The notes beneath the pieces are model-generated. The model had not been told where the DNA came from and did not search any database. It worked only from the letters and a program-made list of their open reading frames with translations. A stretch of 64,000 bases of DNA from an uncultured Winogradskyella sp. Its GTDB lineage: Bacteria > Bacteroidota > Bacteroidia > Flavobacteriales > Flavobacteriaceae. The translations under genes and the position numbers were made by a program. Positions 20,826-55,100 of this stretch are shown here, piece by piece. The stretch lies in contig NZ_CANLYI010000003.1 of assembly GCF_947495255.1 (NCBI RefSeq), positions 310,001 to 374,000 of the forward strand, written 5' to 3'. The first letter of the stretch is position 1, and each line of letters begins with the position of its first letter.

Positions 20826-21470
20826 ATGAAATGGAAGCACAGTGTTATAACTGTAATCGGACATAAGGTTTTTTGGTATGGTTTGCTATTTTGTATTGTT
20901 TGGACAAATTCTCTAATTGGCACTACGGACCTTAAGAATTGGCTTATAGAAAATACGTTAACAGTTATTTCACTGCTCTTTTTAATATTTAGCTATGAAA
21001 AATACAAATTTAGCAACTTTAGTTATTTGCTGATTTGTATTTTTTTATGCCTTCATGTTTATGGTTCCAAATACACTTATGCTCATAATAATTTTGGTTA
21101 TTGGCTTCAACATATAATGCATTCTTCACGAAATCAATACGACAGGTTGGTACATTTTTCTTTTGGCTTATTATTATACTATCCACTTCAAGAATTCCTT
21201 TTTAAAGGGTTTAAAATGACAAAACAGATAGCACTTAAAATTCCTGTATTAATAATTCTTTCAGCAAGTGGATTATATGAAATTATAGAGTGGCTAGTTG
21301 CCGATATTTTTTTCGTAGAAGAAGGTGTTTCTTATCTAGGTACACAAGGTGATGTTTGGGATTCGCAAAAGGATATGGTAATTGCTTTTTTTGGTGTTGT
21401 GATTGCTGCTACCCTCTATTATGTGTACGCAAAATTAATAAATACAAGAAAAGATTCAATACTGATTTAG
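20826..21470 (+). CDS. DUF2238 (YjdF-like) membrane protein
   Basis: 214 residues with about six membrane helices. The family markers are a His/Tyr-rich loop (HVYGSKYTYAHNNFG), NQYDRLVHFSFGLLLYYPLQE and a C-terminal YEIIEWLVADIF with GDVWDSQKDM. These fit DUF2238, an uncharacterised inner membrane family with conserved acidic and His residues. It is the last gene of the run that begins with ferritin. Its stop codon (21468-21470) lies inside TGAY operator 6, so the operator for the next gene overlaps the end of this one. Confidence 0.8.
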   Translation: MKWKHSVITVIGHKVFWYGLLFCIVWTNSLIGTTDLKNWLIENTLTVISLLFLIFSYEKYKFSNFSYLLICIFLCLHVYGSKYTYAHNNFGYWLQHIMHSSRNQYDRLVHFSFGLLLYYPLQEFLFKGFKMTKQIALKIPVLIILSASGLYEIIEWLVADIFFVEEGVSYLGTQGDVWDSQKDMVIAFFGVVIAATLYYVYAKLINTRKDSILI

Positions 21471-21505
21471 GTCAGGTCTATTGTTAATTCCATCTAATAT
21501 ATTTA
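21463..21505 (+). promoter_or_regulatory. TGAY-box promoter 6 (ferric-reductase-like gene)
   Basis: Operator TGATTTAGGTCA (21463-21474), 23 nt, -7 box TATATTTA (21498-21505). The operator overlaps the last codons of the preceding gene; the downstream leader is long, about 115 nt to the ATG at 21625. Confidence 0.75.
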
Positions 21506-23213: not shown

Positions 23214-23256
23214 TGATGTGTGTCATTGTCAGTGCTTTAAATCTAAAATATCTTTG
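23214..23256 (+). promoter_or_regulatory. TGAY-box promoter 7 (BON protein 1)
   Basis: Operator TGATGTGTGTCA (23214-23225), 23 nt, perfect -7 box TATCTTTG (23249-23256); start codon at 23294. The spacer-proximal half fits best; the distal half is the weakest of the set. Confidence 0.75.
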
Positions 23257-24041: not shown

Positions 24042-24084
24042 TGATCTAAGTCATTATCTAGCACGCTAAAGTGTGCTAATTTTA
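24042..24084 (+). promoter_or_regulatory. TGAY-box promoter 8 (BON protein 2 operon)
   Basis: Operator TGATCTAAGTCA (24042-24053), 23 nt, -7 box TAATTTTA (24077-24084); start codon at 24123. The operator begins five bases after the preceding terminator. Confidence 0.8.
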
Positions 24085-28457: not shown

Positions 28458-29414
28458 TTATAATGCATTTGTTGTTTGTGGTTCTCTTAAACTTTGTAAT
28501 TTTCTAAATAAATCTTGTTCTTCTTCAGTAAGTTTTTTTGGCATACTGATGGTTAATTTTACCAGTAAATCCCCATAAGTTGAAGGCTTACTATATTTAG
28601 GCATTCCTTTCCCTTTTAATCTTAGCGTTTTACCTGTTTCACTTCCTTTAGGGATGTTTACTTTTACACTGCCAGAAAGTGTTGGTACTTCTATTTTTCC
28701 TCCTAAAAGCGCTGTATATAAATCTACAGTTGCATTGTAAATAAGATTATCTCCTTTTCTTTCAAATTGAGGGTCTTGTTGTACGCGCAGAATAATGTAT
28801 AAATCTCCTCTATGACCACCATTAACGCCTTGTTGTCCTTTTCCTTTTATTTTTAATTGCAGACCATCGTAAGAGCCTGGTTTAATGGTGATACGTAATT
28901 TTTTATTATGTATTTCAAAGGTGCGTTTGCTTCCTTGGTAGGCTTCTAAAAGTGTTATAGGCATTTCTGCTTTTGTATCCCCTCCAGAGTTATTAGTCCT
29001 TTGACCTTTTGCACTTTGTCTACCTGCTCCAAAAAATGTTTCAAAGAAGCTAGAAAAATCTTCGCCTCCTTGTGCACGTTGACCAAAGAAATCAGAAGGG
29101 TCACCTTGGTAAGAATAGCTATTTCTGCGGTTTTGTTGTTGATTAGCATTATTGGCGTAATCTCTCCAATCATCTCCTGTATTTTGATAAGCTTCCCAGT
29201 TAGAACCTAGCGTATCGTATTTTTCTCGCTTTTCTTTATCGCTGAGAACTTCATTGGCTTCATTTATTTCTTTAAATTTTTCTTCAGCTAACTTATCATC
29301 AGGATTCTTATCCGGATGATGTTTAGCTGCCAATTTTCGATATGCTTTTTTTATATCTTTAGCAGAAGCATCTTTTTTAACTCCTAATATTTTATAATAA
29401 TCCTTGTAGTTCAT
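28458..29414 (-). CDS. cbpA: DnaJ-family co-chaperone, CbpA type
   Basis: 318 residues: J domain (1-70) with the HPD motif (H33-P34-D35 in [10 protein letters not shown]), a Gly/Ser/Asn/Gln-rich linker containing [20 protein letters not shown], and two C-terminal substrate-binding beta domains ([30 protein letters not shown]). The cysteine-rich zinc finger of DnaJ is absent, so it is a class B/CbpA protein, acting with DnaK. It follows the sigma-like gene by 14 bp. E. coli CbpA is also stationary-phase induced, which fits the surrounding regulon; that link is inference. Confidence 0.93.
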
Positions 29415-29428
29415 CTTACAAAGTGATT

Positions 29429-30199
29429 TTATTGTACAGGATATCTATTTATAAAGCTGACTTGTAAGGCTTTTTTAGCATCCTTTAAAAGTTGTTGTAC
29501 GTCAATAAGTGTATTGTTTCTTATCTGTGCAATTTCATCTAAACTTAAATGTTGAGTAGTGGAGAGTTGATATACAATTCGCATTTCTAAAGGCATATTA
29601 TATAACATCATTTCTATGTGGTTATTAATATCTTTAGTACTTAAATCTTTATCAATTTTTTTAATCCAGTCGTTTTCATCATTCTCAATAAATACATGGT
29701 TTAATGTATAATCATTGTGATTATAAGATTGGTCATCTAATTCTTCAATAAGTAATAAATCACCACCACCATCTGTACTGTATTTTTCTTGCATTTCATC
29801 CCATTCAGGTCTTGTGTAATCGTCAATGTTTTTAAAGAAAAATTCGTCAAACTCTTCTTCAACCGTTATATCTTCTAACAGATTATTGGTTTTTTTAAAT
29901 AGCCATAGGTAAAAGTCTTTTTCTTGCTTAACCTCTTCAATATGGTCATAGATTTCTATAAATAGTTGATCTATAATATCATCAGCTTTAAACTTGTTCT
30001 TAGAAAAGTGTCCTTTTTTTATAGCCGTATTTAATTGCGTATTTACATACTGTCTAATTTGTGGCATAATCTTAATCACTAAGGTATTAAAAGAGGCTTG
30101 GTTGCCTTCTTTTTTTAGTTGAACTAAATCCGAGTAAGATTTAGTTACAAATAGTCTAAACTCCTTTTTGTTTTGATAATAAGAAACATCGGTTTGCAT
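29429..30199 (-). CDS. Divergent sigma-70-like protein heading a chaperone operon
   Basis: 256 residues. The N-terminal part resembles sigma region 2 ([16 protein letters not shown], then [17 protein letters not shown] and [16 protein letters not shown], like the region 2 pattern with D-x-x-Q and W-L-x-x-x-x-x-N). The C-terminal part resembles region 4 ([12 protein letters not shown], then [28 protein letters not shown], a helix-turn-helix of ECF type). A long acidic linker of about 90 residues ([14 protein letters not shown] and [12 protein letters not shown]) between them is unusual. It could be a real sigma factor, or a protein that lost promoter binding. It is first in an operon under TGAY-box promoter 9. 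Confidence 0.72.
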
Positions 30200-30225: not shown

Positions 30226-30268
30226 TAAAGGTGCAAACTTCAGCCCTATAATGAAATGATCCAGATCA
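30226..30268 (-). promoter_or_regulatory. TGAY-box promoter 9 (sigma-like/cbpA/trxA operon)
   Basis: Minus strand: operator TGATCTGGATCA (30268-30257), 23 nt, -7 box CACCTTTA (30233-30226), start codon at 30199. Divergent from promoter 10, whose operator starts 22 bp away. Confidence 0.72.
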
Positions 30269-30289: not shown

Positions 30290-30332
30290 TGATCTCAATC
30301 ATTTCCAATGGCTTAATAGCGAGCTACTTTTG
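30290..30332 (+). promoter_or_regulatory. TGAY-box promoter 10 (BON protein 4)
   Basis: Operator TGATCTCAATCA (30290-30301), 23 nt, perfect -7 box TACTTTTG (30325-30332); start codon at 30368. Confidence 0.78.
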
Positions 30333-32236: not shown

Positions 32237-32719
32237 CTATTTTTTTAAACTGTCTTCTAATGAAATTAATTCATTTTTATTTCCTCTAACTATTAATAAG
32301 AAATTGTTTTTATTTAGAGTTTTTAAATAACTACTTACACTGTTTGGTTCTATACCAAGACCTCTTAAAATGCCGAATATTGCGGTAGGCATTTCTCCTA
32401 TTTGTTTTTTATTTACTTCTTGTAAAAACAAAGGCGCTAAAAATCCTGCTATAAAAATAGTGCCTATTTCAGGGTTTGAGATGATTCCGAAATTTGAAGA
32501 TAGTTTCAATTCATTGTCACAGTATCTTTTTAAATCTAACCAAGAGTCTCCATGGTGTGTTTCTAAATCCATGCTCTCTAATTTTCCTAAAACTGAAATC
32601 TGGACAGTTTTAATATCCATTTTACAAATACGTTTTATTAAGTTTTCTATCAGTCGGATTTTTGGAAAGGATTGTATAAGTACTTTTTTCTCTCTTGCTA
32701 TTTCTAATTTGGAGGCCAT
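32237..32719 (-). CDS. Short DUF1269/general-stress-17M-like protein
   Basis: 160 residues without a signal peptide. A central hydrophobic glycine/alanine hairpin (EIGTIFIAGFLAPLF) is followed by an EMPTAIFGILRGLGIEPNSVSSYLKTLNKNNFLLIVRGN segment; such glycine-hairpin proteins end with the same L-G-I-x-x-x-x-x-x-x-Y...G-x-x-L-l-x-V-r-g pattern. Residues TVQISVLGKLES form the usual leading strand. Compared with the product at 17596-18414 the C-terminal coiled coil is absent. Cytosolic or membrane-associated; function unknown. Transcribed alone from TGAY-box promoter 11. Confidence 0.65.
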   Translation of the reverse strand: MASKLEIAREKKVLIQSFPKIRLIENLIKRICKMDIKTVQISVLGKLESMDLETHHGDSWLDLKRYCDNELKLSSNFGIISNPEIGTIFIAGFLAPLFLQEVNKKQIGEMPTAIFGILRGLGIEPNSVSSYLKTLNKNNFLLIVRGNKNELISLEDSLKK

Positions 32720-32759: not shown

Positions 32760-32802
32760 CTAAATTACTGCCATTAAGCTTTGTACGAAATGACCTATAT
32801 CA
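32760..32802 (-). promoter_or_regulatory. TGAY-box promoter 11 (general-stress-17M-like gene)
   Basis: Minus strand: operator TGATATAGGTCA (32802-32791), 23 nt, -7 box TAATTTAG (32767-32760, weaker than consensus), start codon at 32719. Divergent from promoter 12. Confidence 0.7.
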
Positions 32803-32842: not shown

Positions 32843-32885
32843 TGATGTAGGTCATTCTAATAAAGGGGTGTTTGCACTAATTTTG
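32843..32885 (+). promoter_or_regulatory. TGAY-box promoter 12 (YtxH/holin-X operon)
   Basis: Operator TGATGTAGGTCA (32843-32854), 23 nt, perfect -7 box TAATTTTG (32878-32885); start codon at 32948. Confidence 0.82.
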
Positions 32886-33848: not shown

Positions 33849-34919
33849 TTAACCAAATTCAGCAATATCCTTTAAGCTTTCTTTATCTAATAATACGAGC
33901 CTTCTGTTGGTCTCTACCGTGATTAATCCTTCGTTTTTAAACTCTGTTAGCATTCTAATAGCCGTTTCTGTTGCGGTGCCAATTAAGCCAGCAAAATCTT
34001 CTCTTGGTATACTTATACCTTTATGAGTTTCATCTGCAATCATACCTTTTGCATCTAGTTCTAACAAGGCTTTAGCTGTTTTTTGTCTTACAGAGGCAAA
34101 AGCCATATCTACTAAATGTTCTTGTAGGTCAATTAAATTATGAGACATCATCTCAATAAATTTATTAGACACTTCTTTATTACCATAGAGCAATTTTGTA
34201 AAGTCTGCTTTTGGAATACCACAGATTTCTGCATCCTCTAAAACACTAGCTGTTTCTATGTAAACACCAGAGTCACCAAGCAAAGATAATTGACCAATAA
34301 AATCTCCTTCGCCAAAAAAGCCAGTAACAAATTCTTTTCCAGATTCAGTAGTTCTGTATGTTTTTATAGTTCCGCTGTGTATATAAAATAATTGGTGTGC
34401 AGCGTTACCTTCATCAAAAATGCGTTCTTTACTCTTGTAAAATTCTTGTTTACGATTTTTAGATAATGCTTCTAAGTTGAGATATTCTGAAGCTTCATTT
34501 AGAAATTGAGTAATTCCTTCTGTGTTTTTAGAGAATTCTTTCTTTAGAAAGTCATTTTTTTTAATTCTACATTCAATAGCCTCCAGTAATTCATCTTCCT
34601 CAAATGGTTTAGTTAAATAATCATCAGCACCTAAATTCATGCCTTTTCTCATATCTGCTTTTTCAGATTTGGCTGTTAAAAAAATGAAAGGAATGCTTGC
34701 CGTTTTTGGGTTGTTACTTAAGCTTTTAAACACACCATAACCGTCTAACACAGGCATCATAATATCGCATATTATTAAATCTGGAATATTATTCAATGCT
34801 TTGTCTACACCTATTTTACCGTTTTCAGCAGTAGTTACCTCGTAATTTTCTAATTCAAGAATTTCGGATGTATTCTCTCTAACATCGTTGTTGTCTTCTA
34901 TTAATAGTATTTTTTTCAT
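33849..34919 (-). CDS. REC-cNMP-HTH response regulator of the CRP/FNR family (candidate TGAY-box regulator)
   Basis: 356 residues: a receiver domain (1-120) with the phospho-acceptor D52 in CDIMMP and K104 in YLTKPF; a cyclic-nucleotide-binding-like beta barrel (about 150-260; FYIHSGTIKTYR, GEGDFIGQLSLLG); and a CRP-type winged helix (about 275-350). In the recognition helix TATETAIRMLTEF, E318 and R322 match the Glu and Arg that in CRP and FNR read the TGA half-site; FNR's Ser is Ile. It lies 1 bp after a histidine kinase gene, which is therefore the likely partner. The mscS-kinase-regulator operon itself carries a TGAY box (38764-38775), consistent with autoregulation. Confidence 0.93.
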   Translation of the reverse strand: MKKILLIEDNNDVRENTSEILELENYEVTTAENGKIGVDKALNNIPDLIICDIMMPVLDGYGVFKSLSNNPKTASIPFIFLTAKSEKADMRKGMNLGADDYLTKPFEEDELLEAIECRIKKNDFLKKEFSKNTEGITQFLNEASEYLNLEALSKNRKQEFYKSKERIFDEGNAAHQLFYIHSGTIKTYRTTESGKEFVTGFFGEGDFIGQLSLLGDSGVYIETASVLEDAEICGIPKADFTKLLYGNKEVSNKFIEMMSHNLIDLQEHLVDMAFASVRQKTAKALLELDAKGMIADETHKGISIPREDFAGLIGTATETAIRMLTEFKNEGLITVETNRRLVLLDKESLKDIAEFG

Positions 34920-34920
34920 T

Positions 34921-37638
34921 TTATTTTTTATTTAGAGGAAACTCAACCCAAAAAGTTGTGCCTACATTTAATTCGCTTTTAAATGAAATTGTGCCTCCCA
35001 TAAGTTCGGTGTATTGTTTTACAATATTTAATCCTAATCCTGTGCCTTGAATATTGGTTGTGTTATTTGCGCGATAAAAACGTTGAAACATATTGTTTAA
35101 ATCTTCTTTTGGGATACCAATACCTTCATCTTTAATTTCTATAACTAAATATTGGTTGGTTGATTCTATATTAAATGTAATCGGTTTATGTTCTTCGGAA
35201 TATTTAATGGCATTAGATAATAGATTAAAGATGATATGTTTCAATAACTTTTGATCTAAAAATGCCGTAATATTTGGTTGTTGGTGATTAAAATAGATGT
35301 CTTGACCTTCTTTTTTAATGCCTTGGATTTCTTCAATAACAGATTTTGAAAAGTCAATAAAATTAAAAGATGATGGTTGTGCTATAATTTTTCCTTCTTG
35401 GAGTTTACTCAATGATAGAAAATCATTAAGTATTATCACTAAGTCTTTTACATTAGATCTAATTTTTGAGACATGCTTTAATCTTTTTTCCTCTTTACCA
35501 GGTGCGTTTAATTTTTCTATTAGTATGGCAGATGATAGTATAGCGCTAAGTGGTGTTCTAAACTCGTGCGATGCCATTGAAATAAAACGAGATTTTAATT
35601 CACTTAGCTCTTGTTCTTTTTTTAAGCTTTTTAATATTTTAGATTCTGCAGTTTTTTGAAGTGTAATATTGTTATGCACTAACAAAACTTGTTCTATTTT
35701 CTTTTCTGCATTGTATAAAGGTGTTGTGTTTACTAAAAATGTTCGGTTTTGATAGGAGATTTCAAAAGAACAATGTTCACCTTTAAATGTTTTTATAATG
35801 TGGGCTTTTACTTTGTTTTTCACATTATCCGGAACACCTATAAAATTGTCTAATAAAGTTTTTGATTCGGCTAATCCTTTAAATCCTAATTCTTCAACTT
35901 CTTCTCCTTCAACTAATAGTGTGTTAAAATCAGAGTCAAAAACAGCCACAAATCCTTTTGGGAAATTTTGAGAAATATTATCAAGTAAATATTTGTTCTT
36001 TTCTCTTTCGTTTTCTGCAGACTTAGTTATTAAAATTTGATCTTCTAAGCTCAAGTTAGATTCTATTAATTTCTGAACCGTAGATGTGAGTTCGTGGGTG
36101 CGTTCTTTTACCTTGTTTTCTAATTTTTCGGTATAATTACGTAAGGCTTCCTCATCTTCTTTTAGTTTTTGTTTTGTTATCTTTTTTGCAGTAATATCGT
36201 GGGTTACACCAATGATTCTTACTGGTTTTCCTGTTTTGTTTTTGAAAATTTTTCCTTTTTCGTGTAACCAGTGAACCGATTTGTCATTATGTATTACTCT
36301 ATATTCTAAAGTATAAGTACTTGCTGTTTTTATAGCTTCTGATACTTTTGATTTTACATACGTTCTATCTTTAGGATGAACCTTATTTGTAAACGATTGG
36401 TACGTATCTGTATCGTTATTTATATCTAATAAATTCTCTTGAAAAGCATCTCTAACTATTTGGTCGGTAATTAAGTTCCACTCCCAAGAGCCAAATTCAC
36501 CTACTTCTAAGGCCAGTCTTTTTCGTTCTTCATTTTCTAAAATACTCTTTTCAATGTCTTTTTTTTCTGTAACATCGCGAATTATAGTTAAAAAATTTCC
36601 TTCATCCGTTTGGATTATTCGCGATTCAAGATGTACTAATTTATTATTAATTTGAAGTGAGTACTCAATAGTTTGAATCTCCTTTGTTAGTTCACAATTA
36701 GTAAAACCTTGTCTAATTATTGTACAAACGTCTTTAGGAAGAATAGCATCAATATTTTTACCAATATGGTCATCGTAAGGTACTACAAGTTGATGGTTTT
36801 CGGGCGCATGTAACTCAAGGTGATTGCCGTGTTTGTCATAAACTATCATAACGTCTGGTAACGTTTTTAAGAGAACTCTTATCTGCGCTTCGTTCTTAAT
36901 AATTTGCTTTTCTGCAATCTTACGTTCGGTAACGTCTCTAACAATAGTAAGAACGCCATGTGTATTTAAATGGACTACTCGAGCCTCAAAAAAATCTTCT
37001 CTAGCTTCAGTCTTAACGCTAAACTCTTCAATTTGTAATTCTCCGCTTTTAATGGCAAGACTATGAGCCTTTCTCATGATTTTAAATACATGAGAAGGTA
37101 ATATTTCTTTCATGTTCTTACCTATAAACTTATCGGGAGATACAAACAGTTTTTCATCTTGTGGAGCATAACAATCGAGGTAATTTCCTTCTAAATCTTG
37201 AATGAATAGCATATCTGGCATAGCTTCTAATAAAGCCTTATTTCTAGCTTCCTTTTCAAATAATTGCCTTTCTGTTTCTTTCTGTTTTGTAATGTCTTGT
37301 ATAAAACCTTCTAAAGCAGTTAAATTGCCATTAGTGTCATAAACACCTTGACCTTGTTCTAAAAAACTCCTAACTGTTCCGTTTTTATGCGTTATTTGGT
37401 ATTCAATATTAAAAAGCACTTTGTTAATGATTGCTTTTTGTAGCTGTTTAGAAATTGAATTAAAATCTTTAGCTATAATCATTTGAGCTAAAGTTACTGT
37501 TCCATTTAAGAAATCCTCACGTGTGTATCCTGTTAAGGCAAAACAACCTTTACTTATAGCTTCTATTGTCCAGTTTTTATCGTTCTTTCTACGATAAAAT
37601 AGACCTGATAGATTATTGATAAGGTTATCTAATTTCAT
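34921..37638 (-). CDS. Soluble multi-PAS histidine kinase
   Basis: 905 residues, no transmembrane helix, so a cytosolic sensor. About five PAS/PAC units occupy the first 630 residues (opening GCFALTGYTREDFLNGT; repeated P-D-x-x-x-x-x-D-x-x-G-x-x-L units; a PAC pair with YTLEYRVIHNDKSVHWLHEKG), plus a coiled coil near 500-560. The HisKA domain has the phospho-His H691 in ASHEFRTPLS, and the ATPase domain has FNLLSNAIKYS, IKDEGIGIPKED and GTGLGLNIVKQY. No receiver domain is attached; the adjacent REC-CRP gene supplies it. The ligand cannot be told from sequence; no heme-PAS or Cys cluster is evident. Confidence 0.93.
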   Translation of the reverse strand: MKLDNLINNLSGLFYRRKNDKNWTIEAISKGCFALTGYTREDFLNGTVTLAQMIIAKDFNSISKQLQKAIINKVLFNIEYQITHKNGTVRSFLEQGQGVYDTNGNLTALEGFIQDITKQKETERQLFEKEARNKALLEAMPDMLFIQDLEGNYLDCYAPQDEKLFVSPDKFIGKNMKEILPSHVFKIMRKAHSLAIKSGELQIEEFSVKTEAREDFFEARVVHLNTHGVLTIVRDVTERKIAEKQIIKNEAQIRVLLKTLPDVMIVYDKHGNHLELHAPENHQLVVPYDDHIGKNIDAILPKDVCTIIRQGFTNCELTKEIQTIEYSLQINNKLVHLESRIIQTDEGNFLTIIRDVTEKKDIEKSILENEERKRLALEVGEFGSWEWNLITDQIVRDAFQENLLDINNDTDTYQSFTNKVHPKDRTYVKSKVSEAIKTASTYTLEYRVIHNDKSVHWLHEKGKIFKNKTGKPVRIIGVTHDITAKKITKQKLKEDEEALRNYTEKLENKVKERTHELTSTVQKLIESNLSLEDQILITKSAENEREKNKYLLDNISQNFPKGFVAVFDSDFNTLLVEGEEVEELGFKGLAESKTLLDNFIGVPDNVKNKVKAHIIKTFKGEHCSFEISYQNRTFLVNTTPLYNAEKKIEQVLLVHNNITLQKTAESKILKSLKKEQELSELKSRFISMASHEFRTPLSAILSSAILIEKLNAPGKEEKRLKHVSKIRSNVKDLVIILNDFLSLSKLQEGKIIAQPSSFNFIDFSKSVIEEIQGIKKEGQDIYFNHQQPNITAFLDQKLLKHIIFNLLSNAIKYSEEHKPITFNIESTNQYLVIEIKDEGIGIPKEDLNNMFQRFYRANNTTNIQGTGLGLNIVKQYTELMGGTISFKSELNVGTTFWVEFPLNKK

Positions 37639-37662
37639 ATTTAGAGCTTTGTTTTAAGCATT

Positions 37663-38724
37663 TTAGTCTATGTTTCTACTGATATTAATTTGTCTTATTT
37701 TAGGAAGATTGTCTGCATGATTTTCTTGAATAAATTTAATTAGTTTTTCCCTTACATTACATCTTAAATTCCAAATATCACTTGCGTTTTTTGCACTAAA
37801 TGTTGCCCTTAGTTCCATGGTATTTGAATCTGTATTTGTGACGAGTAACTCAGCGACATTCTTATCCCATAAGGCATCATTTTTTAGGACGTGCAATAGC
37901 TTTTTTCTTATATCAATAACAGGAAACATATAATCTACATGTAAGAATACGGTACCAATTAAGTCTTGTGTGCTAAATGTCCAATTAACAAAAGAGTTAT
38001 CATTAAAATAATTAAGAGGAAGAACTAGACGTCTCCAATCCCATGTTTTAATAACAACATAGGTCAGTGTTATGTCTTCTACGACACCAAACTCACCTTG
38101 TATAACCACTTCGTCGTCAATTTTTATGGGTTGTGTAAATGCTATTTGAAAACCTGTAATGAGGTTGGCTATTGATTTTTGAGCGGCAACACCTGCTATG
38201 ATTCCTATAACACCAGCAGAAGTTAATATGGTAGTACCAAGTTTTCTTACTGAAGGGATATTCCACAAAATTGCAGCAACAGCCAGCGTAATAATTATAA
38301 CTACAGATAGGCTTTTTATAAAACGCAACTGCGTTAAAACTTTTCTTTCCTCTATTTTATGAATATCATTATTAGTAAATTTTTCTTTAACAACATTTTC
38401 TATTGCATTTAATGAAGCGATTAATAACCAAGAAAAATTAATGATGATGAGACTTTCAAAAACCTTTTGCCAAGAGGCGTTTATATCTAGAATATTAAAC
38501 GCACTAAAAATAAATAGAATAGGAAATAGAAATTTGGCAGGTAGCGTTAAATGTTTGAGCAGTTGCTTCTTTAGAATTGTGGACTTTCTTTTAATAGAGA
38601 GTTTAATAAGTAAAAAAAGAATCCATTGTACAAGTAGACCAAGTAGTATGCAACAAAGAATTACTAAACTATAGGTAATCCAAGAATCTAAATGTGTTAG
38701 TAATTCCATTTGGCTGAAAATCAT
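37663..38724 (-). CDS. MscS-family mechanosensitive channel
   Basis: 353 residues with four N-terminal membrane helices (extending beyond the three of small MscS) and the MscS core: the pore helix with repeated Ala/Gly (SAGVIGIIAGVAAQKSIANLI), followed by the cytosolic beta domain (GEFGVVEDITLTYVVI, TWDWRRLVLPLNYF). It opens at membrane tension to release solutes under hypo-osmotic shock. Met6 (38709) is likely the true start, because the predicted transcription start (about 38728) lies only about 4 bp before the Met at 38724. First gene of the operon with the PAS kinase and REC-CRP regulator, driven by TGAY-box promoter 13. Confidence 0.9.
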   Translation of the reverse strand: MIFSQMELLTHLDSWITYSLVILCCILLGLLVQWILFLLIKLSIKRKSTILKKQLLKHLTLPAKFLFPILFIFSAFNILDINASWQKVFESLIIINFSWLLIASLNAIENVVKEKFTNNDIHKIEERKVLTQLRFIKSLSVVIIITLAVAAILWNIPSVRKLGTTILTSAGVIGIIAGVAAQKSIANLITGFQIAFTQPIKIDDEVVIQGEFGVVEDITLTYVVIKTWDWRRLVLPLNYFNDNSFVNWTFSTQDLIGTVFLHVDYMFPVIDIRKKLLHVLKNDALWDKNVAELLVTNTDSNTMELRATFSAKNASDIWNLRCNVREKLIKFIQENHADNLPKIRQINISRNID

Positions 38725-38732
38725 GTCGTTTA

Positions 38733-38775
38733 CAAAACTAGATGAACCCTTTTCTAATTAAAATGACCTATGTCA
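38733..38775 (-). promoter_or_regulatory. TGAY-box promoter 13 (mscS-kinase-regulator operon)
   Basis: Minus strand: operator TGACATAGGTCA (38775-38764), 23 nt, perfect -7 box TAGTTTTG (38740-38733). This operator is identical to site 15 and heads the regulator's own operon. Confidence 0.87.
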
Positions 38776-38810: not shown

Positions 38811-39578
38811 TTATTTTTTAAATAAAGCTTTGTTTTCTGCTAATATCGTTTTTGTAGAAGTGTAGCCTAAGTTGAAAATAGCATCAATATTATTCATGTT
38901 AAAAGTGCCATATTTCACTAAGTCCTTCGGATTTATTACCATATCACAATCAGGAAATTTGCACATTGATTCTGCGGCAACTTTAATTTTATAAGCTCTT
39001 TCAACTATGGAATATGAATGTCTTAAATCCTTAATGGTAACTTCTTTTAATGGGTTAACATAAACGCCAATAATTTTATCACAAGTTACTTTTAACGGTT
39101 CTACAGGGAAATTATTTAAAGTTCCACCATCTACATAGTATTCACCATTGATTTCGGTAGGTGTAAAAACACCAGGAAAAGATGCTGAAGCAATAATGGG
39201 TTTAATGAGTTCGCCTTTGCTAAATATTTTTGAAGTGCCATCTACAATATTTGCAGCAGTAACAAACAATGGCTTTTTTAAAGTATCAAAATTATCCTCA
39301 GGAAAAAAGGCTTTAAGGTCATCATAAAAGTTCACGGAATTTAAGAAACCAGGTTTGTTGCGTGCATATCTGTAAGCACTAAAAATAGTTATGGTTTTAA
39401 AGAAACGTAATATTTCGGACCAAGAAACGCCTGCTGCGTATAAACTACCTACAATGGCACCTGCACTAGCGCCAGAAATATGTGTTGGATGTATGCCTTC
39501 TTCTTCTAAAGCTTTAATTACGCCTATATGAGCTGCACCTCGCGCACCACCTCCAGAAAGTACCAATCCAATATTCAT
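38811..39578 (-). CDS. Patatin-like phospholipase
   Basis: 255-residue patatin-family hydrolase, likely a phospholipase or lysophospholipase, of bacterial NTE/YchK type. The oxyanion hole is SGGGARG (8-14), the nucleophile S38 is in GASAG, and the Asp of the dyad is D150 in YVDGG. No signal peptide is visible, so it should act in the cytosol at the inner membrane. It lies 83 bp downstream of the cardiolipin synthase gene on the same strand and may be its operon partner; together they could remodel phospholipids. Confidence 0.9.
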   Translation of the reverse strand: MNIGLVLSGGGARGAAHIGVIKALEEEGIHPTHISGASAGAIVGSLYAAGVSWSEILRFFKTITIFSAYRYARNKPGFLNSVNFYDDLKAFFPEDNFDTLKKPLFVTAANIVDGTSKIFSKGELIKPIIASASFPGVFTPTEINGEYYVDGGTLNNFPVEPLKVTCDKIIGVYVNPLKEVTIKDLRHSYSIVERAYKIKVAAESMCKFPDCDMVINPKDLVKYGTFNMNNIDAIFNLGYTSTKTILAENKALFKK

Positions 39579-39661: not shown

Positions 39662-41089
39662 TTATAAAACAGGACTAAATACTTTGGCGATGCCTTCTTT
39701 TAATCGTTCTGTTTTTGGTCTTTTTAGATATTGTTCATAATCTAATGGCTCACTTTTTTTACAATCTTTTAAAAAGTCTTGCTTTAATTCTGTGGTAATA
39801 TTGCTATCGTAAATTAAAACGTTGACTTCATAATTCTCTTCGAAACTTCTAATATCTAGATTTGCAGTTCCTATCGTGGCAAGTTCATCATCTGAGATAA
39901 TTACCTTGCCATGTAAAAAACCATCAGGATATAAATAGATTTTAACACCTGCGGCTAACAAATCTTCAAAGCTTGAGCGCACAGTCCATTTTACCAAAAG
40001 GCTATCTGAATTTGCAGATAATAATAATCTAATATCTACACCACTCATTGCTGCAACTTGTAAAGCTTCTTTTAAAGCTTCTCCAGGAATTATATAAGGA
40101 TTGGTTATGTAAACATATTTTTTTGCACTGTTAATTATTGAAAAATAATGTTGATGTATGGAAGAGAAATCAGAATCTGGACCACCAGCAACAACTTGCG
40201 CAATAGAATTATTATCTGTTGTGTGTTTTACTAAGTATTTTGTATTTAATAAGTTATCTGTACCACTAGCAAAACTCCAATCCATAGCAAAAACGGCTTG
40301 TAGACTATTCACAACATTGCCTTTTAATTGCAAGTGCATATCGTACCAATTCCCCAATATAGGATCACCAGAGATGTATTTGTCAGCGACGTTAATACCA
40401 CCTGTAAAACCATAAATACCATCTACAATAACTATTTTTCGATGGTTTCTGTAATTTATGGATGAAATAAATTTACCAAAATGCATAGGTAAAAATCCAT
40501 AAACTTCTATGCCTTCTGCTTTAAGGCTATTAATATATTTATTACTTAATGATCGGCTTCCTAAAGCATCGTATAGAAAACGTACTTCAATACCTTCTCT
40601 TACTTTTTGAATTAGAATGGATTTAAATTTTTCGGCTAAATCACCTTCTTCAAAAATATAATACTGAATATGAATGAACTTTTTTGCTGTTTCCATAGCT
40701 AAAAAAATAGCTTCAAACGTAGAAGCCCCATTTTTTAAAGGAATTAATTCATTTCCAAAAGTAGGATTGAAGTTAGAACCTTTAGTGACAAGTTTAACTA
40801 GTTTTAAATGGTTTTTAATGGCTATAGGTACATTGTTTACTTTGTCTATATGATCATTGTTTTCAACCTTTTCTAGATATTCTGAAATAGCCTTAGTTTT
40901 CTTAAGTGTATAGAATTTATTCTTTTTTCGGTTTCTGCCAAGTATAAAATAAAACAACATACCACCAACCGGAATTGTAAAAATAGCTAACAGCCAAGCC
41001 AACGTTTTTGTGGGACGCACACCATAAAGCAACAATCTGCCCATTAAAACGAACGCTATAAGAAAATATATAATTAGAGCTATCGTCAT
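39662..41089 (-). CDS. cls: Cardiolipin synthase (phospholipase D family)
   Basis: 475-residue membrane enzyme making cardiolipin from two phosphatidylglycerol molecules. Two N-terminal membrane helices (IALIIYFLIAFVLMG and LAWLLAIFTIPVGGMLFYF) precede two PLD domains with HKD motifs, HRKIVIVDG (first) and HGKVIISDD with T-x-N-x-D-x-R-S-F-E (second). The length and layout fit Cls rather than a soluble phospholipase D. It lies 14 bp after the DUF6134-like gene and is upstream of the patatin gene in the operon from TGAY-box promoter 14. Confidence 0.93.
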   Translation of the reverse strand: MTIALIIYFLIAFVLMGRLLLYGVRPTKTLAWLLAIFTIPVGGMLFYFILGRNRKKNKFYTLKKTKAISEYLEKVENNDHIDKVNNVPIAIKNHLKLVKLVTKGSNFNPTFGNELIPLKNGASTFEAIFLAMETAKKFIHIQYYIFEEGDLAEKFKSILIQKVREGIEVRFLYDALGSRSLSNKYINSLKAEGIEVYGFLPMHFGKFISSINYRNHRKIVIVDGIYGFTGGINVADKYISGDPILGNWYDMHLQLKGNVVNSLQAVFAMDWSFASGTDNLLNTKYLVKHTTDNNSIAQVVAGGPDSDFSSIHQHYFSIINSAKKYVYITNPYIIPGEALKEALQVAAMSGVDIRLLLSANSDSLLVKWTVRSSFEDLLAAGVKIYLYPDGFLHGKVIISDDELATIGTANLDIRSFEENYEVNVLIYDSNITTELKQDFLKDCKKSEPLDYEQYLKRPKTERLKEGIAKVFSPVL

Positions 41090-41103: not shown

Positions 41104-41703
41104 TTAGTTTTTGGCAATAATTTCGAATTTAATTAATCCGCTATCTATAGTTGCCTTTTTTAAAATCCCTTTGTTGTAGTAGTAAATGTTTTCTCGTCCT
41201 TTAGAATTAATTTTTTTATACGAATGATTTCCTAATGCCATTATGGTATTAAAACTTCCATCTTGTTCAGAAAAGCACTTTTTTATGTTTTTTGGCTCTT
41301 TAAAATAAAGTTGAACCGTTGTATAATTAATTGAGTCTGTTAAGATTTCATTGTCTTCATCATTTTTTATAATTTGATAATCTGAATCATTCCTCAGCGT
41401 CTGCGTTTTGGCATGTGGCTTTTCATTTACGGTAATATCTACTTTAGAGGATTCTAACATGTTGTTTTCAAAAGCGACATCATATTTGTAGTGTACTCGT
41501 ATTTCTTTTATAATTCGAGTTTCAATTGTTGTTGAACTCTGATAGTAAGTTATAGAGTCTTTCAAAGTTTTCGTGGCATTTAGGCTACCAATTACTTTTC
41601 CATTATGAACGACATCAAAATAAAGGTTTTTGTTTAAAGTGTTATTGGTACTTCCCCAAAAAACAAATAAACTTATCACTAGCAGATTTCGAAATATGTG
41701 CAT
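41104..41703 (-). CDS. Exported DUF6134-like protein
   Basis: 199 residues with an N-terminal hydrophobic export signal (FRNLLVISLFVFWGSTNNT). The mature part is beta-rich, with the order YFDVVHNGKVIGSLNATKTL, IRVHYKYDVAFENNMLES, TVQLYFKEPKNIKKCFSEQDGSF and a final KKATIDSGLIKFEIIAKN. The Y-D-V-x-x-x-G-x-x-I-G motif and the closing strand resemble DUF6134 (periplasmic, function unknown). It heads an operon with cls and the patatin, behind TGAY-box promoter 14, so a role in envelope or lipid maintenance is inferred. Confidence 0.65.
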   Translation of the reverse strand: MHIFRNLLVISLFVFWGSTNNTLNKNLYFDVVHNGKVIGSLNATKTLKDSITYYQSSTTIETRIIKEIRVHYKYDVAFENNMLESSKVDITVNEKPHAKTQTLRNDSDYQIIKNDEDNEILTDSINYTTVQLYFKEPKNIKKCFSEQDGSFNTIMALGNHSYKKINSKGRENIYYYNKGILKKATIDSGLIKFEIIAKN

Positions 41704-41724: not shown

Positions 41725-41767
41725 CAAATTAAGGTAAAAATAAAAAGGTGAACAATGACCTTAATCA
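41725..41767 (-). promoter_or_regulatory. TGAY-box promoter 14 (DUF6134-cls-patatin operon)
   Basis: Minus strand: operator TGATTAAGGTCA (41767-41756), 23 nt, -7 box TTAATTTG (41732-41725, one mismatch), start codon at 41703. Confidence 0.72.
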
Positions 41768-41882: not shown

Positions 41883-41925
41883 TGACATAGGTCATGTTTA
41901 ATTAGGCTTATGAACAGTACTTTTA
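41883..41925 (+). promoter_or_regulatory. TGAY-box promoter 15 (TolC/HlyD/ABC-2 operon)
   Basis: Operator TGACATAGGTCA (41883-41894), identical to site 13, then 23 nt and -7 box TACTTTTA (41918-41925). Confidence 0.82.
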
Positions 41926-49149: not shown

Positions 49150-52100
49150 TTATCTTTTAATAACAACGTAACCTTTTAAAGTTTTAAAATTGTGCTCACC
49201 ACTAATTGAAAATTGAAAGAAGTAGGTGCCATCAGGTAGTTTACCAGCTCCCATTTTAGTCTTTTTATTAGCGACTCCTCTAAATACATTAGATGTGTTA
49301 TTATAATCATCAATCTGAAAAACTAAATCGCCCCATCTATTGTAAATACTTACGGTGTTATTAGGATGGTCTTCAATGCCTTCAATATTCCAAAAATCGT
49401 TAACACCATCACTATTTGGTGAAAAACCATATTTGACATCATTTTTCGGAACGAGTAGTGTAGTAAATTCGCTTTCTGAACAGTTTTCAGCTTCTCCATT
49501 TATGTTATACGGAATGATTGTGATGTAGTAAGTTGTTATGCTTTCTAGCTCATCGTCAAAACTATAGGTTGTTGTAAAACCTACATCTAAATTATCAACA
49601 ATGTCAGTACCTCCAGATTCTGTACCTACAGATAATATATAACCATCAGCATTTGATATGGCTTCCCATGTTAAGTCAGTTTCTATAAAGACATCAATTT
49701 CACTATCGTACGGACTTAATAGTTCAGTACAAACAGGCGTTTTAACAATATCAAATATCTCTGAACTACAGCCTATTGCTTCAATAGTTCCATTAATAGG
49801 AATGATTGTTACAGCTACTATTTCATTGCTTAAAAATAAACTTGAAAAGTCGTAAAATGTATCTGTGGTTTCAAAATCTGAAACATTATTACTTGAAGTT
49901 CCGGTAATAGTGACTTTATAACTCGTTGCATTAGATACAGGATTCCATGTAATTTGAGTCAGATTAGTCGCAACATCAAAAGCACCATTTAATGGACTCG
50001 CAAGAGTAGTACAACTTGGTATTTCAGGAATAATAGTAAAACTTTCTAATGTACAACCAATAGCTTCAACAGTTTGATTAATAGGAGTTATAGTTACCGT
50101 TACAACCTCATCATTAACAAATGGATTAGTAAAATTGTAAAAAGTATCAGTAGTTTCAAAATCGGTAATATTGTTATAGGCAGTACCAGAAATAGTTACT
50201 TTGTAAGATGTTGCATTTGTTGCAGCATTCCATGTGATTTGATTGAAGTCTATAGCAACGTTAGTTTCACCATCTAAAGGACTAGCTAGAGCAGTACAAT
50301 CTGGTGTTACAGGAATAATAGTAAAACTTTCAGTAGAACAACCTAAAGCTTCTACAATTCCATCCATAGGAATAATAGTTATAGAAACTACTTCGCTATT
50401 TATGAATGGATTTGTGAAATTGTAGAAGGTATCTGAAGTTTCAAAATCGGTAGCATCATTATTAGTAGTGCCAGAAATAGTGATTTTATAAGAAGTCGCG
50501 TTTGTCACAGCACTCCAAGTGATTTGATTTAAATCTGTAGCAATGTTAGTAGCTTCATTAAGAGGGCTCGCAAGAGTAGTACAACTTGGTATTTCAGGAA
50601 TAATAGTAAAACTTTCTGATGTACAACCAATAGCTTCAACAGTTTGATTAATAGAAGTTATAGTTACCGTTACAACCTCATCATTAACAAATGGATTAGT
50701 AAAATTGTAAAAAGTATCAGTAGTTTCAAAATCAGTAATATTGTTATTGGCAGTACCAGAGATAGTTACTTTGTAAGACGTTGCATTTGTTGCAGCATTC
50801 CATGTAATTTGATTGAAGTCTATAGCAACATTAGTCTCACCATCTAAAGGATTAGCTAGAGCAGTACAATCTGGCGTTACAGGAATAATAGTAAAACTTT
50901 CAGTAGAACAACCCAAAGCTTCTACAATTCCATCTATAGGTATAATAGTTATAGAAACTATTTCGCTATTTATGAACGGATTTGTAAAGTTGTAGTAGGT
51001 ATCTGAAGTTTCAAAATCGGTAACATCATTATTAGAAGTACCAGAAATAGTGACTTTATAAGAAGTCGCGTTTGTCACGGCATTCCAAGTGATTTGGTTT
51101 AAATCTGTAGCAATGTTAGTAGCTCCATTAAGAGGGCTCTCAAGAGTAGTACAACTTGGTGTTTCAGGAACAATAGTAAAACTCTCAGGTATACAACCAA
51201 TAGCTTCAACAGTTTGATTAATAGGTATGATAGTTACCGTTACAACTTCATCATTAACAAATGGATTAGTAAAATTGTAAAAAGTATCAGTAGTTTCAAA
51301 ATCGGTAATATTGTTATTGGCAGTACCAGAGATAGTTACTTTGTAAGACGTTGCATTTGTTGCAGCGTTCCATGTAATTTGATTTAAATCAACTGCTACA
51401 TTTACAGCACTATCCAAAGGACTTGCAAGTGTAGTACAGTTTGGTGTTTCAGGAATAATAGTGAAACTTTCTGATGAACAACCTATAGCACTTTCCGTTG
51501 TATTGAATGGGATAATGGTTACTGTAACTATTTCACCATTTAAAAATGGATTGGAGAAATCATAAAACGTTTCTATTGTTTCAAAATCTGTTATATCATT
51601 GTTTGAAGTGCCTGAAATTGTTATACGATAAGATGTTGCATTTGTAGCGACATTCCAAGTAATTTGATTTAGATCTACAGCAATATTTGTTGTGCCATCT
51701 GTAGGACTTGTGAGATTTGTACAAACAGGCGTAGTAGAAATTGGGTCTTCAGTAGTAAATGTTTCTTCACTACATCCCGTTGCATCACCTATGGCGTTAT
51801 AAGGAATTATAGTAACATAATAAGTCCGAGTATTCTCTAAATCATTAGGAATGTCGTAAGTAGTCATGTTGCCAACATCTATACTATTAGCAACTTCAAT
51901 ACCATTGCTCGTAGTACCTATACTAATCAAGTATCCTGTTGCATCTGCAACAGCATTCCAAGAAATATTTGTGTCTATTAGAACGTCTATTTCATTATTA
52001 ATAGGACTAATTATACTTGTACATAATGGAGGACGAGGAATAGTTTGTGTTGTAAAACTATCTGTAGAACAACTGTTGGCATCACCTTCATCATTGTATG

Positions 52101-55100
52101 GTGTAATTGTAACCTCTATTAATGTTTCTTCAGGTAAATCCGTAGTGAAATCATAGGTAGTTATATTTCCAACATCTTCATTATTTAAAATAGTAACTCC
52201 TCCAGGATTGGTCACTGCAGTAATTCTGTACCCATTAGCATTGGTAATTGGTGCCCAATTTAAATCTGTACCAACTTCAACTTCAGTAGCTCCATTTATC
52301 GGGAACGTAAGATTTGTACAATCCGGAATTGTTGCTGCATCTGTTGATATTGTAAAGCTTTCTTCAGTGCATGGTCCAATAGCATCGCCTTCATCATTAT
52401 AAGGGATAATGGTTACATATACAGTTTCTCCACCAACAAAATCACTAGGAAATTCGTATGAAGTAACATCACCTAAGGTCTCATTAATAACAGTTCCGCT
52501 TGGTTGTATAGTGATTTCTAATTTGTATCCACTGGCAAATAACACGTCTTCCCAAGTTAAATTGGTATTTACTGGTACGTCTGTAGCTGCATTTAGCGGT
52601 AAAATTAGTTGCGTACATTCTGGGATAGGACAATCTAAAATATCACCAACTATTGTCCAGCCATAATTATCTATTATTGCTTGTCGTTCTTGCAATGCAT
52701 CACAATAGAGTAGAGTATTGGCACCTAGTGTAAGTCCTGGTGTTAATATAAGGTCTGACCAAGCAATTAAAGTTGCATCATAGTTTTCTCTAGTTAATGC
52801 AGTATCATCTAGCATGTTATTTACATTTGTAACATTACTCATATCCCAAGACACCAAGTTTTGATTAAAAGCTGTAGCATCTCTAAACATACTTCTCATG
52901 GTTACAGTACCTATATTCCAGGTATCCATGGATTGATTATAAGCTATAGCATCTCTAAACATATTCTCCATGCTCTCAACACCAGTTACGCGCCAATTAT
53001 TTAAAGTTTGATTGAATACTGATGCACCATAGAACATATTCTCCATCGTAATTACTTTACGTACATTCCAACTATTTATTTCGCTATTAAAAGACGTCGC
53101 ATCCTGAAACATACCTTCCATAGTTGTAACAGAGGCTACATTCCAACTATTCATTGCTTGGTTGTAGGTTGAGGCATCTCTAAACATTTCCTCCATAGTG
53201 GTTACAAACGATACATCCCAAGCATCTATATCTTGATTAAATAGTGTTGCACCTTTAAACATTTCTTGCATATTTTGGACTTCTCCTGTATCCCAACTAT
53301 TTAATGGTTGGTCGAATGCAACAGCGTCTTCAAACATGGACATCATATTTGTTACCGAAGCAACGTCCCAATTATTTATTGGGTTGTTAAATAGGGTAGC
53401 GCCTTTAAACATAGCATTGGTAAGTGTTACTGAACTTACGTCCCATGAACTTAAAGGCTGATCAAAGCTTGTAGCATCTTCAAACATAGAAGACATAGTA
53501 GCAACAGCACTAACATCCCAATTATCAATAGGTTGATTAAAAAGCGTTGCACCTTCAAACATAGAACTCATATTAACGACAGAGTTAACGTCCCATTGAT
53601 TTAAAGGTTCATTAAAGGCTATAGCGTTTTCAAACATGCTGGATGTTGTGAGTACATTTGTAACGTTCCAGCTATTAATATTCTGATTAAATAGAACAGC
53701 GCTAAAGAACATACCGTTCATGTTAGTTACTGAAGAAACATTCCAAGCATTTAAAGGTTGATTAAATGATGAAGCACTCGAAAACATTCTATACATTGTA
53801 GTAACACTGTTAACATTCCAATTGTTTAACGGCTGATTAAAATCTGAAGCACTAGCAAACATTTGACTCATATTTGATACATTACTAACATTCCATGCAT
53901 CTATTGATTGGTTAAAAGTGTCTGCCGAGTAAAACATTTCTTGCATATCATTAACGTTGATAACATCCCAACTACTTATATCGTTATCAAAAGCATCGGC
54001 ATTTTCAAACATTTCTTCCATTGTAGAAACACTAGTAACGTCCCAATTGGTTAATGGTTGATTAAATGCAGTTGCACCCTTAAACATGCTCTCCATGGTT
54101 GTAACATTAGCAACGTTCCAATTGTTTATAAGTTGATTAAAGGCTGTTGCTGTTTCAAACATTCGTTGCATATTGGTGACATTAGCAGTATTCCAATTGT
54201 CAATATTTTGATTAAAAGTGTTTGTTCTAAAGAACATTAAAGACATGTTAGTCACATTGCTAACATCCCAATTGTTAAGCGGCTGATTAAATATTTCGGC
54301 AACACCAAACATCCCATACATATTAGTAACATTACTTACGTCCCAAGAATTTATATTACCATCAAAATTTCTACAAACTATAAACATTCTGCTCATATCG
54401 GTAACGATAGAAATGTTGGGTATATCAGTTGCTAGATATTCCATGTTTGTACAACCTGCAAAAGCACCTTGCATGCTCTCCCAAATTTGTGTTCCCCATT
54501 GATCTATAGATAATAATTTATAGGAGTCACTATTAAATTCTTCGTGTCGTGGTGCAGGAAAATCACCAATTATACTAATCGTATAAATACCTGGAATTAA
54601 ATACGTATGAGTTAGGTCTCCTGTAACATTATTGTTGTACTGACCATCTCCCCAATCTATAGAATAGTTATAAGTTATTCCTGATCTTGTTTGAAGTTTA
54701 AGTTGATTGATTGGTGTCGTTTGATTGCTATATTGAAGTTGCGTATCATACGTTAATTTAAAGGCGTCTGGGCTATTAACCCAACTATCAACTGTTTTAA
54801 AATAAATTTCTTCGCATCCAACAGCTGGTCCTTCATCGTTGTATGGAATTACAGTGACGTAAACATTATCACCAGGAAGAAACTCGTTGGTAAAAGTGAC
54901 GCTTACAACATTGCCAACATCTTCATTATCAAAAATTACTTGTATTATATTACCCATATCATCTTCGCGACGTATACTTACATAATAACCTGTGGCGTTT
55001 GGTGCAGGATCCCAAATAATATTTGAGTTTGCTGGGACATTAAGATCACCATCAATTGGTGAAATTATAGTTGTACAAATTACATAGGAGCAATCAACAC

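Follow-up and report, generated by a model that had tools for sequence, protein, structure and literature searches.

The closest described relatives of the system reported here are the FixL-FixJ-FixK and hFixL-FxkR-FixK systems of rhizobia, in which a PAS kinase acts through a receiver on an activator of the CRP/FNR type, whose box has a TGAT-N4-ATCA core (FixK box TTGAT-N4-ATCAA; PMC7888657, in its accessible part). Here we describe an operon from a 64,000-bp stretch of DNA of an uncultured Winogradskyella sp. (contig NZ_CANLYI010000003.1, positions 310,001–374,000; this whole stretch is called the window), which encodes a mechanosensitive channel, a multi-PAS histidine kinase and a regulator with a receiver and a CRP-type output (REC-CRP), and whose regulator probably activates clustered stress genes from palindromic boxes.

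Unlike in the rhizobial systems, the receiver and the CRP output are fused here into one protein, and the relay in which FixJ switches on transcription of fixK therefore falls away. The kinase of the window has no FixL signature, whereas a related system on contig C11 of the same genome has a FixL-like PAS domain beside its REC-CRP. The FixK half-site carries T at base 5, while mostly A or C is found at this position here.

The second group of related systems includes the two-component activators DevR/DosR of Mycobacterium and OsdR of Streptomyces. Their sites crowd around the regulator gene and the targets include universal stress proteins (Usp); OsdR also targets pyruvate phosphate dikinase (PPDK), and the DevR regulon also includes heat shock proteins (accessible part of PMC5069765). 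Similarly to these, islands on contigs C9 and C11 of the Winogradskyella genome hold genes for Usp, Hsp20, a PPDK-family protein, an M50+CBS protein, a P-type ATPase, a phosphoribosyltransferase and Pyridox_ox. The output domain of DosR is a helix-turn-helix (HTH) of the NarL type, whereas here it is HTH_Crp_2, with another operator and with the TAnnTTTG promoters of Bacteroidota. Since the output domains differ, the likeness to DosR is one of function and not of descent.

With CRP and FNR of E. coli the regulator shares the cNMP fold followed by an HTH, the recognition Glu and Arg and the operator centre at −41.5. In contrast to them, it lacks the cAMP-contact residues and an N-terminal Cys cluster and has an added receiver, and the half-sites TGTGA and TTGAT are replaced by AATGAYCT. 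Its domains place it in the CRP/FNR superfamily and among the response regulators, but not in the families of the cAMP-dependent CRP, the iron-sulfur FNR, FixJ or DosR. An open-access literature search at the level of listings revealed no receiver-CRP regulator and no such regulon in Bacteroidota; subscription papers were outside its scope, and an earlier description is possible. In the accessible main text of a 2025 survey of CRP/FNR DNA-binding domains (PMC12531629), a term search found neither 'receiver' nor 'response regulator'. For a widespread class of regulators, of which this search found no description, the operator, the geometry of the promoter and the regulon can now be predicted.

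The mscS operon and its regulator

The operon contains the following elements:

33849–34919, minus strand: REC-CRP regulator, 356 amino acids (Response_reg, cNMP_binding, HTH_Crp_2)
34921–37638, minus strand: multi-PAS histidine kinase, 905 amino acids (PAS_9/PAS_4/PAS_3, HisKA, HATPase_c)
37663–38724, minus strand: MscS-type mechanosensitive channel, 353 amino acids (MS_channel)
38733–38740, minus strand: sigma-A −7 element TAGTTTTG of the mscS operon, 29 nt from the box centre
38764–38775, minus strand: box TGACATAGGTCA (minus-strand spelling) of the mscS operon, TGACCTATGTCA

Downstream of the box, whose centre is 45 bp before the mscS start, the genes follow in the order mscS, kinase, REC-CRP. 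The gaps between them are only 24 bp (mscS stop to kinase start) and 1 bp (kinase stop to REC-CRP start), and the three genes therefore likely form a single transcript. A preliminary description of this DNA had proposed that a MscS channel, a soluble multi-PAS kinase and a REC-CRP protein, encoded behind a TGAY box, form the autoregulated controller of fifteen operons; the coordinates and domains were confirmed. The hydrophobicity profile of the kinase fits a soluble protein (maximum 0.9 versus 2.9 for MscS, Kyte-Doolittle mean over 19 residues). Its adjacency in the operon makes it the presumed partner of REC-CRP.

The window protein matches the CRP/FNR superfamily domains PF00027 (E 8e-20) and PF13545 (E 6e-13) and aligns with E. 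coli CRP across 177 residues. Its recognition helix, GTATETAIRML (residues 314–324), contains T317, E318, I321 and R322, as had been numbered before; E318 and R322 align with the recognition-helix Glu and Arg of CRP, and are predicted to contact the TGA core. The receiver has the phosphorylation residues D52, T82 and K104, and its motifs are common in the family: among 115 REC-CRP proteins the Asp region was found in 110, the Lys in 111 and the Thr region in 106.

In E. coli CRP, the cassette that binds the phosphate of cAMP includes Arg82-Ser83 and Glu72. Alignment with CRP revealed no Arg-Ser at the phosphate-binding positions of the window protein, and Gln stands in place of the pocket Glu. 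This region was identified in 80 of 115 REC-CRP proteins, and none of the 80 has the R[ST]A motif. A cAMP gate is unlikely because the contact residues are missing, and cAMP was rejected as an input. No N-terminal Cys cluster of the FNR type was seen in the translation of the window REC-CRP, where the N-terminus is the receiver. Of the dual gating proposed earlier, phosphorylation is the supported input, the receiver residues being intact, and cAMP is improbable as the ligand; a ligand other than cAMP is possible.

Boxes and promoter geometry

The window contains 20 copies of TGAYNNNNRTCA, whereas dinucleotide shuffles predict 4.1, and none of 100 shuffles reached 20. Among spacers of 0 to 12 bases, the 4-base spacer gave 15 intergenic matches and each other spacer 0–2. 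Spacers of 7 and 10 bases, with 11 window matches each, were discarded as within-gene background (only two and one intergenic, respectively). A 6-base spacer, TGAYNNNNNNRTCA with one mismatch, showed no enrichment (93 versus 96 expected) and was also dropped.

Fifteen of the 20 boxes are promoter-located and five lie within genes; the box at 13024 was counted among the former, with the overlapping open reading frame (ORF), which has a TTG start, judged spurious. All 15 have at least four of the five letters of TANNTTT exactly 29 nt from the centre on the gene-facing side, and 11 have all five, while at least four letters were found for only one of the five in-gene boxes. These 15 boxes equal in number the fifteen operons claimed earlier.

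The same spacing was revealed well beyond the window when TANNTTTG was counted up to 120 nt from the gene-facing sides of boxes. In the three islands of the own genome (the window, C9 and C11, see below), position 29 accounted for 11 of 16 matches (63 box sides). In 80 loci of relatives there were 55 matches at 29 (451 sides), with further peaks of 34 at 51, 8 at 52 and 6 at 67, and 39 further family loci gave 54 matches at 29 (274 sides). The remaining listed positions had 0–2 matches each.

Class II activation by CRP and FNR canonically takes place from a site centred at −41.5. Mapping of transcription start sites in Flavobacterium psychrophilum placed TAnnTTTG at −12 to −5 (accessible part of PMC9723704), and with the 29-nt spacing this puts the box centre at −41.5. 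The boxes can therefore be regarded as putative class II activation sites, their position being read from the sequence with the F. psychrophilum start sites as reference. It should be mentioned that the peak at 51/52 nt was seen in L034–L113, the 80 relatives' loci, and not in the 39 family loci (34 and 8 matches versus 0 and 1); such a peak would be consistent with paired boxes that are separated by about 22 bp (two helical turns), one at −41.5 and the other at approximately −63.5.

Besides the mscS box, the promoter-located boxes of the window are as follows:

6959–6970, minus strand: −7 element TACCTTTA toward 5062–6900, citrate/sodium-type transporter
11851–11862, plus strand: −7 element TATCTTTA toward 11913
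13024–13035, plus strand: −7 element AACCTTTG (4/5) toward the ATG at 13094
14924–14935, plus strand: −7 element TAATTTTA toward 15023, DUF5661
15316–15327, plus strand: −7 element TAATTTTG toward 15426, ferritin-like protein, and the genes after it
21463–21474, plus strand: −7 element TATATTTA toward 21625, ferric-reductase-like protein
23214–23225, plus strand: −7 element TATCTTTG toward 23291, BON-domain protein
24042–24053, plus strand: −7 element TAATTTTA toward 24123, whose product resembles the BON protein 23291 at its N-terminus, by eye only
30257–30268, minus strand: −7 element CACCTTTA (4/5) toward 29429–30199, then the DnaJ gene 28458–29414
30290–30301, plus strand: −7 element TACTTTTG toward 30368, BON-domain protein
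32791–32802, minus strand: −7 element TAATTTAG (4/5) toward 32237–32719
32843–32854, plus strand: −7 element TAATTTTG toward 32948, YtxH
41756–41767, minus strand: −7 element TTAATTTG (4/5) toward 41104–41703, DUF6134, then the PLD and patatin genes
41883–41894, plus strand: −7 element TACTTTTA toward 41944, outer-membrane efflux protein, with a gene for an ABC-2 membrane protein downstream

The variant CACCTTTA (30226–30233, minus strand) recurs at the 29-nt position before a gene of 256–270 amino acids in the relatives' loci L034, L035 and L037; given this recurrence, a genuine promoter variant is more probable than decay.

In the whole 4.21-Mb genome, TGAYNNNNRTCA occurs 314 times versus 249 for the reversed pattern. 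Sixty of the 314 boxes lie within 158 kb at three REC-CRP genes (the window, 1–80 kb of C9 and a 14-kb stretch of C11), which corresponds to 380/Mb versus 63/Mb elsewhere and a shuffle rate of 64/Mb in the window; the C9 stretch was picked after its boxes were known. Seventeen exact copies of AATGAYNNNNRTCATT were found, four in the window, ten in C9 at 5.5–65 kb and one each in C2, C7 and C10. The composite promoter, defined as box-N23-TANNTTT, was revealed 59 times, against three in the reversed control, with 18 composites in the C9 island and 11 in the window. It is a simple pattern that predicts targets in each genome with low background. Boxes also accumulate around REC-CRP genes of other genomes: 426 versus 89 expected from shuffles in the 80 relatives' loci, and 272 versus 31 reversed around 36 REC-CRP genes of the family (three own and 33 from elsewhere), which represent 36 of 42 regions (39 family and three own), the unparsed L153, L161, L169, L170, L174 and L177 being missing.

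Paralogous regulators, box spelling and occurrence across genera

The preliminary description saw no other regulator of this type. This holds for the window, which contains a single PF13545/PF00027 match, but not for the genome, where seven HTH_Crp_2 matches above cut-off include six more besides the window gene, and three of the seven are REC-CRP proteins (window on C3, C9 and C11). We call A-type the proteins with Ala in the recognition helix (window and C9) and L-type those of the C11 kind (GIATETLIRTL). The C9 REC-CRP gene (G000:C9:50280-51347, G000 being the own genome) encodes a recognition helix, GTATETAIRMLTEF, identical to that of the window protein, and sits within a box-rich island of its own. 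In a quick tree of 115 REC-CRP proteins, 27 L-type proteins are split off by a branch with support 100, and 27 of the 32 Ala-helix proteins fall into one Flavobacteriaceae/Weeksellaceae group (support 96), with five elsewhere. A further relative is an FNR-like protein (G000:C3:88107-88781) with the helix GTATESAIRIL and an N-terminal CDQC; a box begins 47 bp before the start codon of its gene, whose neighbours resemble, by eye, cbb3 oxidase and FixI. This protein probably reads similar boxes.

The spelling of the boxes differs between the two types: in seven genomes holding both, it is ATGACCT near the A-type of the window and ATGATAT near the L-type. Of the 86 sites near A-type genes, 61 have C at base 10 in at least one half, compared with 10 of the 53 sites next to L-type genes (P = 2e-9); without the own genome, the counts are 29/46 versus 9/45 (P = 4e-5), and the direction is alike in each of the seven genomes, some with small counts. 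Base 9 is C at 69/86 and 29/53 sites, respectively (P = 0.002; 0.015 without the own genome). The locus L178 was left out of this test (its genome G001 has no L-type gene). The C-spelled composite TGAYCT was found 31 times in eight genomes with the A-type helix, which do not include G019 (helix GIAKETLTR) and G039 (helix unparsed), versus 14 times in 52 others; the seven without the own genome contain 16 (P = 2e-6). The fit to TGAC/TGAT proposed earlier is borne out in that TGAC is favoured near A-type genes, while the strongest difference, at base 10, had been overlooked.

The FNR-only genomes compared have a different spelling as well. In the own C3 and C9 islands (a list of 29 entries, with two divergent C9 boxes entered twice), 27 of 58 half-sites have C at base 10, versus 4 of 78 in three of the 24 FNR-only genomes. 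In the own composites elsewhere it is C in 7 of 40 half-sites (20 of 22 composites). Since base 10 differs both by the neighbouring paralog and from these FNR-only genomes, a single shared reader explains the boxes poorly. Grouping 79 loci by helix residue gave fractions of base 10 = C of 0.41 for Ala and 0.10–0.16 for Leu, Val and Thr; this grouping is confounded by phylogeny and was not used as evidence.

It can be hypothesized, and we lean towards this view, that one Bacteroidota cell runs two-component circuits of the CRP type that are parallel and insulated, in which ancient REC-CRP paralogs, and FNR besides, have a common TGAY-N4-RTCA core at −41.5 and a central spelling of its own for each (CT|AG in the multi-PAS branch and AT|AT in the FixL-like branch), so that fused one-step versions of FixL-FixJ-FixK would run separate stress islands. 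Where paralogs with differently spelled boxes coexist in a genome, the insulation of CRP-family paralogs from each other could be studied in a natural setting.

The kinases of the two types may differ in their signals. His and Arg of FixL have roles in heme sensing. For the PAS domain of the C11 kinase, the best solved match is FixL (1d06, E 2e-13), with DosP ranking below, and its His and conserved Arg align with those of FixL, which suggests that this kinase senses oxygen. A FixL-like PAS was sought in the window kinase by a regular expression for the His/Arg signature and was not found, and none of the eight A-type kinases matched. In the strict form, the expression matched 5 of 21 kinases of the L-type; the rest, inspected by eye, mostly retain the His, and some of them have lost the Arg. 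Oxygen sensing by the entire L-type branch is a lead and not a result. In the L-type operon of L148 (G047) the upstream kinase starts, by eye, with a LOV-like sequence (NCRFL), and sensors may be swapped within this branch. In two genera, the gene for the FNR-like protein is separated by about 1 kb from that for an L-type REC-CRP (G047:C1:696909-699613 and G055:C1:1567938-1570631), which suggests linked pathways.

REC-CRP proteins were found in 29 of 60 Flavobacteriaceae genera (C11 protein as query, E up to 1e-50) and FNR-like proteins in 40 of 60 (E up to 1e-45); across the phylum, REC-CRP was detected in 12 of 80 genomes, the own one included (E up to 1e-60). The number of composites per genome follows the presence of these regulators: the median is 1 in the seven genera with neither (range 0–3), 11 in the 24 with FNR-like only (2–32), 18 in the 13 with REC-CRP only (9–36) and 30.5 in the 16 with both (13–59). 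The association with REC-CRP is significant both without and with the FNR-like protein (P = 3e-4 and 1e-5). The reversed control gave group means of 0.4–1.4, and over the 60 genomes 1072 composites were found versus 67 reversed. For MTGAYNNNNRTCAK, the box without the −7 element, the median ratios over the reversed pattern were 0.79 (neither), 1.39 (FNR-like only), 2.52 (REC-CRP only) and 2.61 (both), with exceptions that include G050 (neither, 3.1) and G048 (FNR-like only, 7.6). The flavobacterial FNR-like regulon, as predicted from composites, is itself sizeable; among FNR-only genera, G048, G012 and G005 are rich in composites (32, 25 and 17).

Mechanism, self-regulation and alternative readings

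Taken as a whole, the following course of events is the best explanation of the data, and we hold it with good confidence. The kinase would phosphorylate the receiver of REC-CRP, as suggested by operon adjacency and the intact receiver residues. The activated dimer would bind boxes of the AATGAYCT-AGRTCATT type centred at −41.5 and contact sigma-A RNA polymerase at promoters with the TAnnTTTG −7 element. It would thereby turn on clustered stress or dormancy-like genes in the window and the C9 island and, by positive feedback, its own mscS-kinase-REC-CRP operon. Because its recognition helix is identical, the C9 REC-CRP very likely shares the same boxes, so that two joint controllers would be fed by two kinases.

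In the window, boxed units include ferritin-like, BON-domain, YtxH, DnaJ, DUF5661, ferric-reductase-like, transporter and efflux genes. The predicted regulon extends beyond the window. The C9 island contains genes for a peroxiredoxin, Usp, an FtsH-like protease, an M50+CBS protease, Pyridox_ox, a PPDK-family protein, a phosphoribosyltransferase, a P-type ATPase, Hsp20 and GH130; this list gives the island content, only some of it tied to boxes of its own. By analogy, the system likely acts in the manner of FixK, as a two-component activator whose targets form a stress set like that of DosR.

Self-regulation was examined in the relatives. The mscS gene was sought by tblastn in 29 REC-CRP loci and found in L034 (Lacinutrix), L035 (Polaribacter), L037 (Lutibacter), L038 (Flavobacterium frigidarium) and L039 (an uncultured relative). 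Five of the six mscS-bearing clusters (own, L035, L037, L038 and L039) retain the mscS box together with TAnnTTTG at +29; the exception is L034, where a composite stands before a gene of 254 amino acids at the place of the patatin gene. Composites oriented toward the operon were found in 15 of 32 A-type REC-CRP operons versus 158 of 830 other first genes of the same loci (P = 4e-4); with a 100-bp operon gap, the counts are 28/113 (A-type 18/32, others 10/81) versus 118/725. The operon is thus a likely target of its own product, in agreement with the autoregulation supposed earlier. For REC-CRP operons in general, an upstream box was found in 43 of 79 loci (of the relatives' 80, L112 being missing). 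Self-regulation was dropped for non-A types, since 354 of 830 other first genes are also boxed and oriented composites are not enriched (9/82, at background); it is supported for the A-type branch only.

Several observations weigh against the proposed mechanism. With one mismatch, AATGAYNNNNRTCATT is hardly more frequent genome-wide than its reversed control (166 versus 157), 22 of the 59 own composites lie outside the three REC-CRP regions, and non-A REC-CRP operons with an oriented composite are not above background. No box was found within 350 bp upstream of the C9 kinase-REC-CRP operon. The genus counts ignore kinship, and the half-site counts (base 10 = C in 74/172 near A-type versus 11/106 near L-type genes; base 9 = C in 103/172 versus 39/106) include two halves of one box that are not independent. 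FNR-only genera also hold composites, up to 32 in G048, and part of any regulon may be FNR-driven. Finally, the window REC-CRP may be dispensable, because its C9 paralog is indistinguishable from it by the recognition helix.

If the FNR-like regulator read all TGAY boxes, REC-CRP genes would be mere travelling targets. Its helix TESAIR is near the A-type TETAIR, it has the N-terminal CDQC, a box precedes its own gene, and the 24 FNR-only genera have a median of 11 composites. However, the 13 genera with REC-CRP and no FNR-like match at the threshold used hold far more composites than the seven with neither, boxes cluster at REC-CRP genes, and base 10 is spelled differently in the three FNR-only genomes compared; we consider this reading improbable. 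Somewhat less so, although still unlikely, is control of both islands by the C9 REC-CRP alone, with the window protein redundant, diverged or a phosphate sink. The identical helices and the larger number of composites in the C9 island speak for it, but the window protein retains its receiver and helix residues, the mscS box is conserved, and members of the window REC-CRP lineage, likewise surrounded by boxes, occur in Lacinutrix, Polaribacter, Lutibacter and Flavobacterium. Sequence does not tell activation from repression, and CRP/FNR proteins can repress; still, repressor sites would be expected to scatter across the promoter, whereas the centre is fixed at −41.5 with 55 and 54 matches in two locus sets, and it is very doubtful that the boxes serve repression or that the protein acts mainly in this way.

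The joint action of REC-CRP paralogs described above remains preferred. The preliminary description is partly supported: it was right for the most part, but too narrow. Comparative data support a REC-CRP family that would read TGAY-N4-RTCA boxes and activate, but the window protein can hardly be called 'the' controller when a C9 paralog with the same helix has an island of its own, and the FNR-like protein, with its own box and its own composites across genera, also speaks against sole control.

The conserved gene unit appears to exceed the three-gene operon. Upstream of the mscS box, three further genes were found:

38811–39578, minus strand: patatin-like phospholipase, encoded upstream within the conserved cluster
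39662–41089, minus strand: PLD-family protein of the conserved cluster
41104–41703, minus strand: DUF6134 protein, first gene of the cluster

A kinase match lies directly upstream of REC-CRP in L034–L039 and in further A-type loci, and MscS orthologs with 64–71% identity are encoded upstream of the kinase in the five mscS-bearing relatives. Judged by length and not by family, genes of near-equal length occupy the patatin place in L034, L035 and L037 and the PLD place in L035 and L037, and a gene of equal length the DUF6134 place in L037. By gene length and order, the cluster DUF6134-PLD-patatin-MscS-kinase-REC-CRP is thus represented by six genes in L037, five in L035 and four in L034. Because these upstream genes keep their order by length, the unit would take in the patatin, PLD and DUF6134 genes in some relatives.

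The C9 stress island (G000:C9:5499-64841, loci L129–L132), with its 18 composites around the second A-type REC-CRP, contains paralogs of window genes, identified partly by eye: a YtxH pair, BON, patatin and genes of 121 and 127 amino acids. Near the contig start, the ORF L129:343-1599 (minus strand) has, by eye, the look of a tyrosine recombinase, and the island may be mobile. About 340–380 bp before the C9 kinase gene, a composite at 54998–55039 (minus strand) is spelled in the AT-rich way, TGATATATATCA, and not with C; it is possible that the C9 system stands in a cascade under the C11 or the FNR-like branch.

Apart from these regulators, an ORF of 2562 amino acids at 49150–56838 of the window contains near-identical 14-base matches 570 bp apart (50100, 50670 and 51240), indicating that it holds long repeats.

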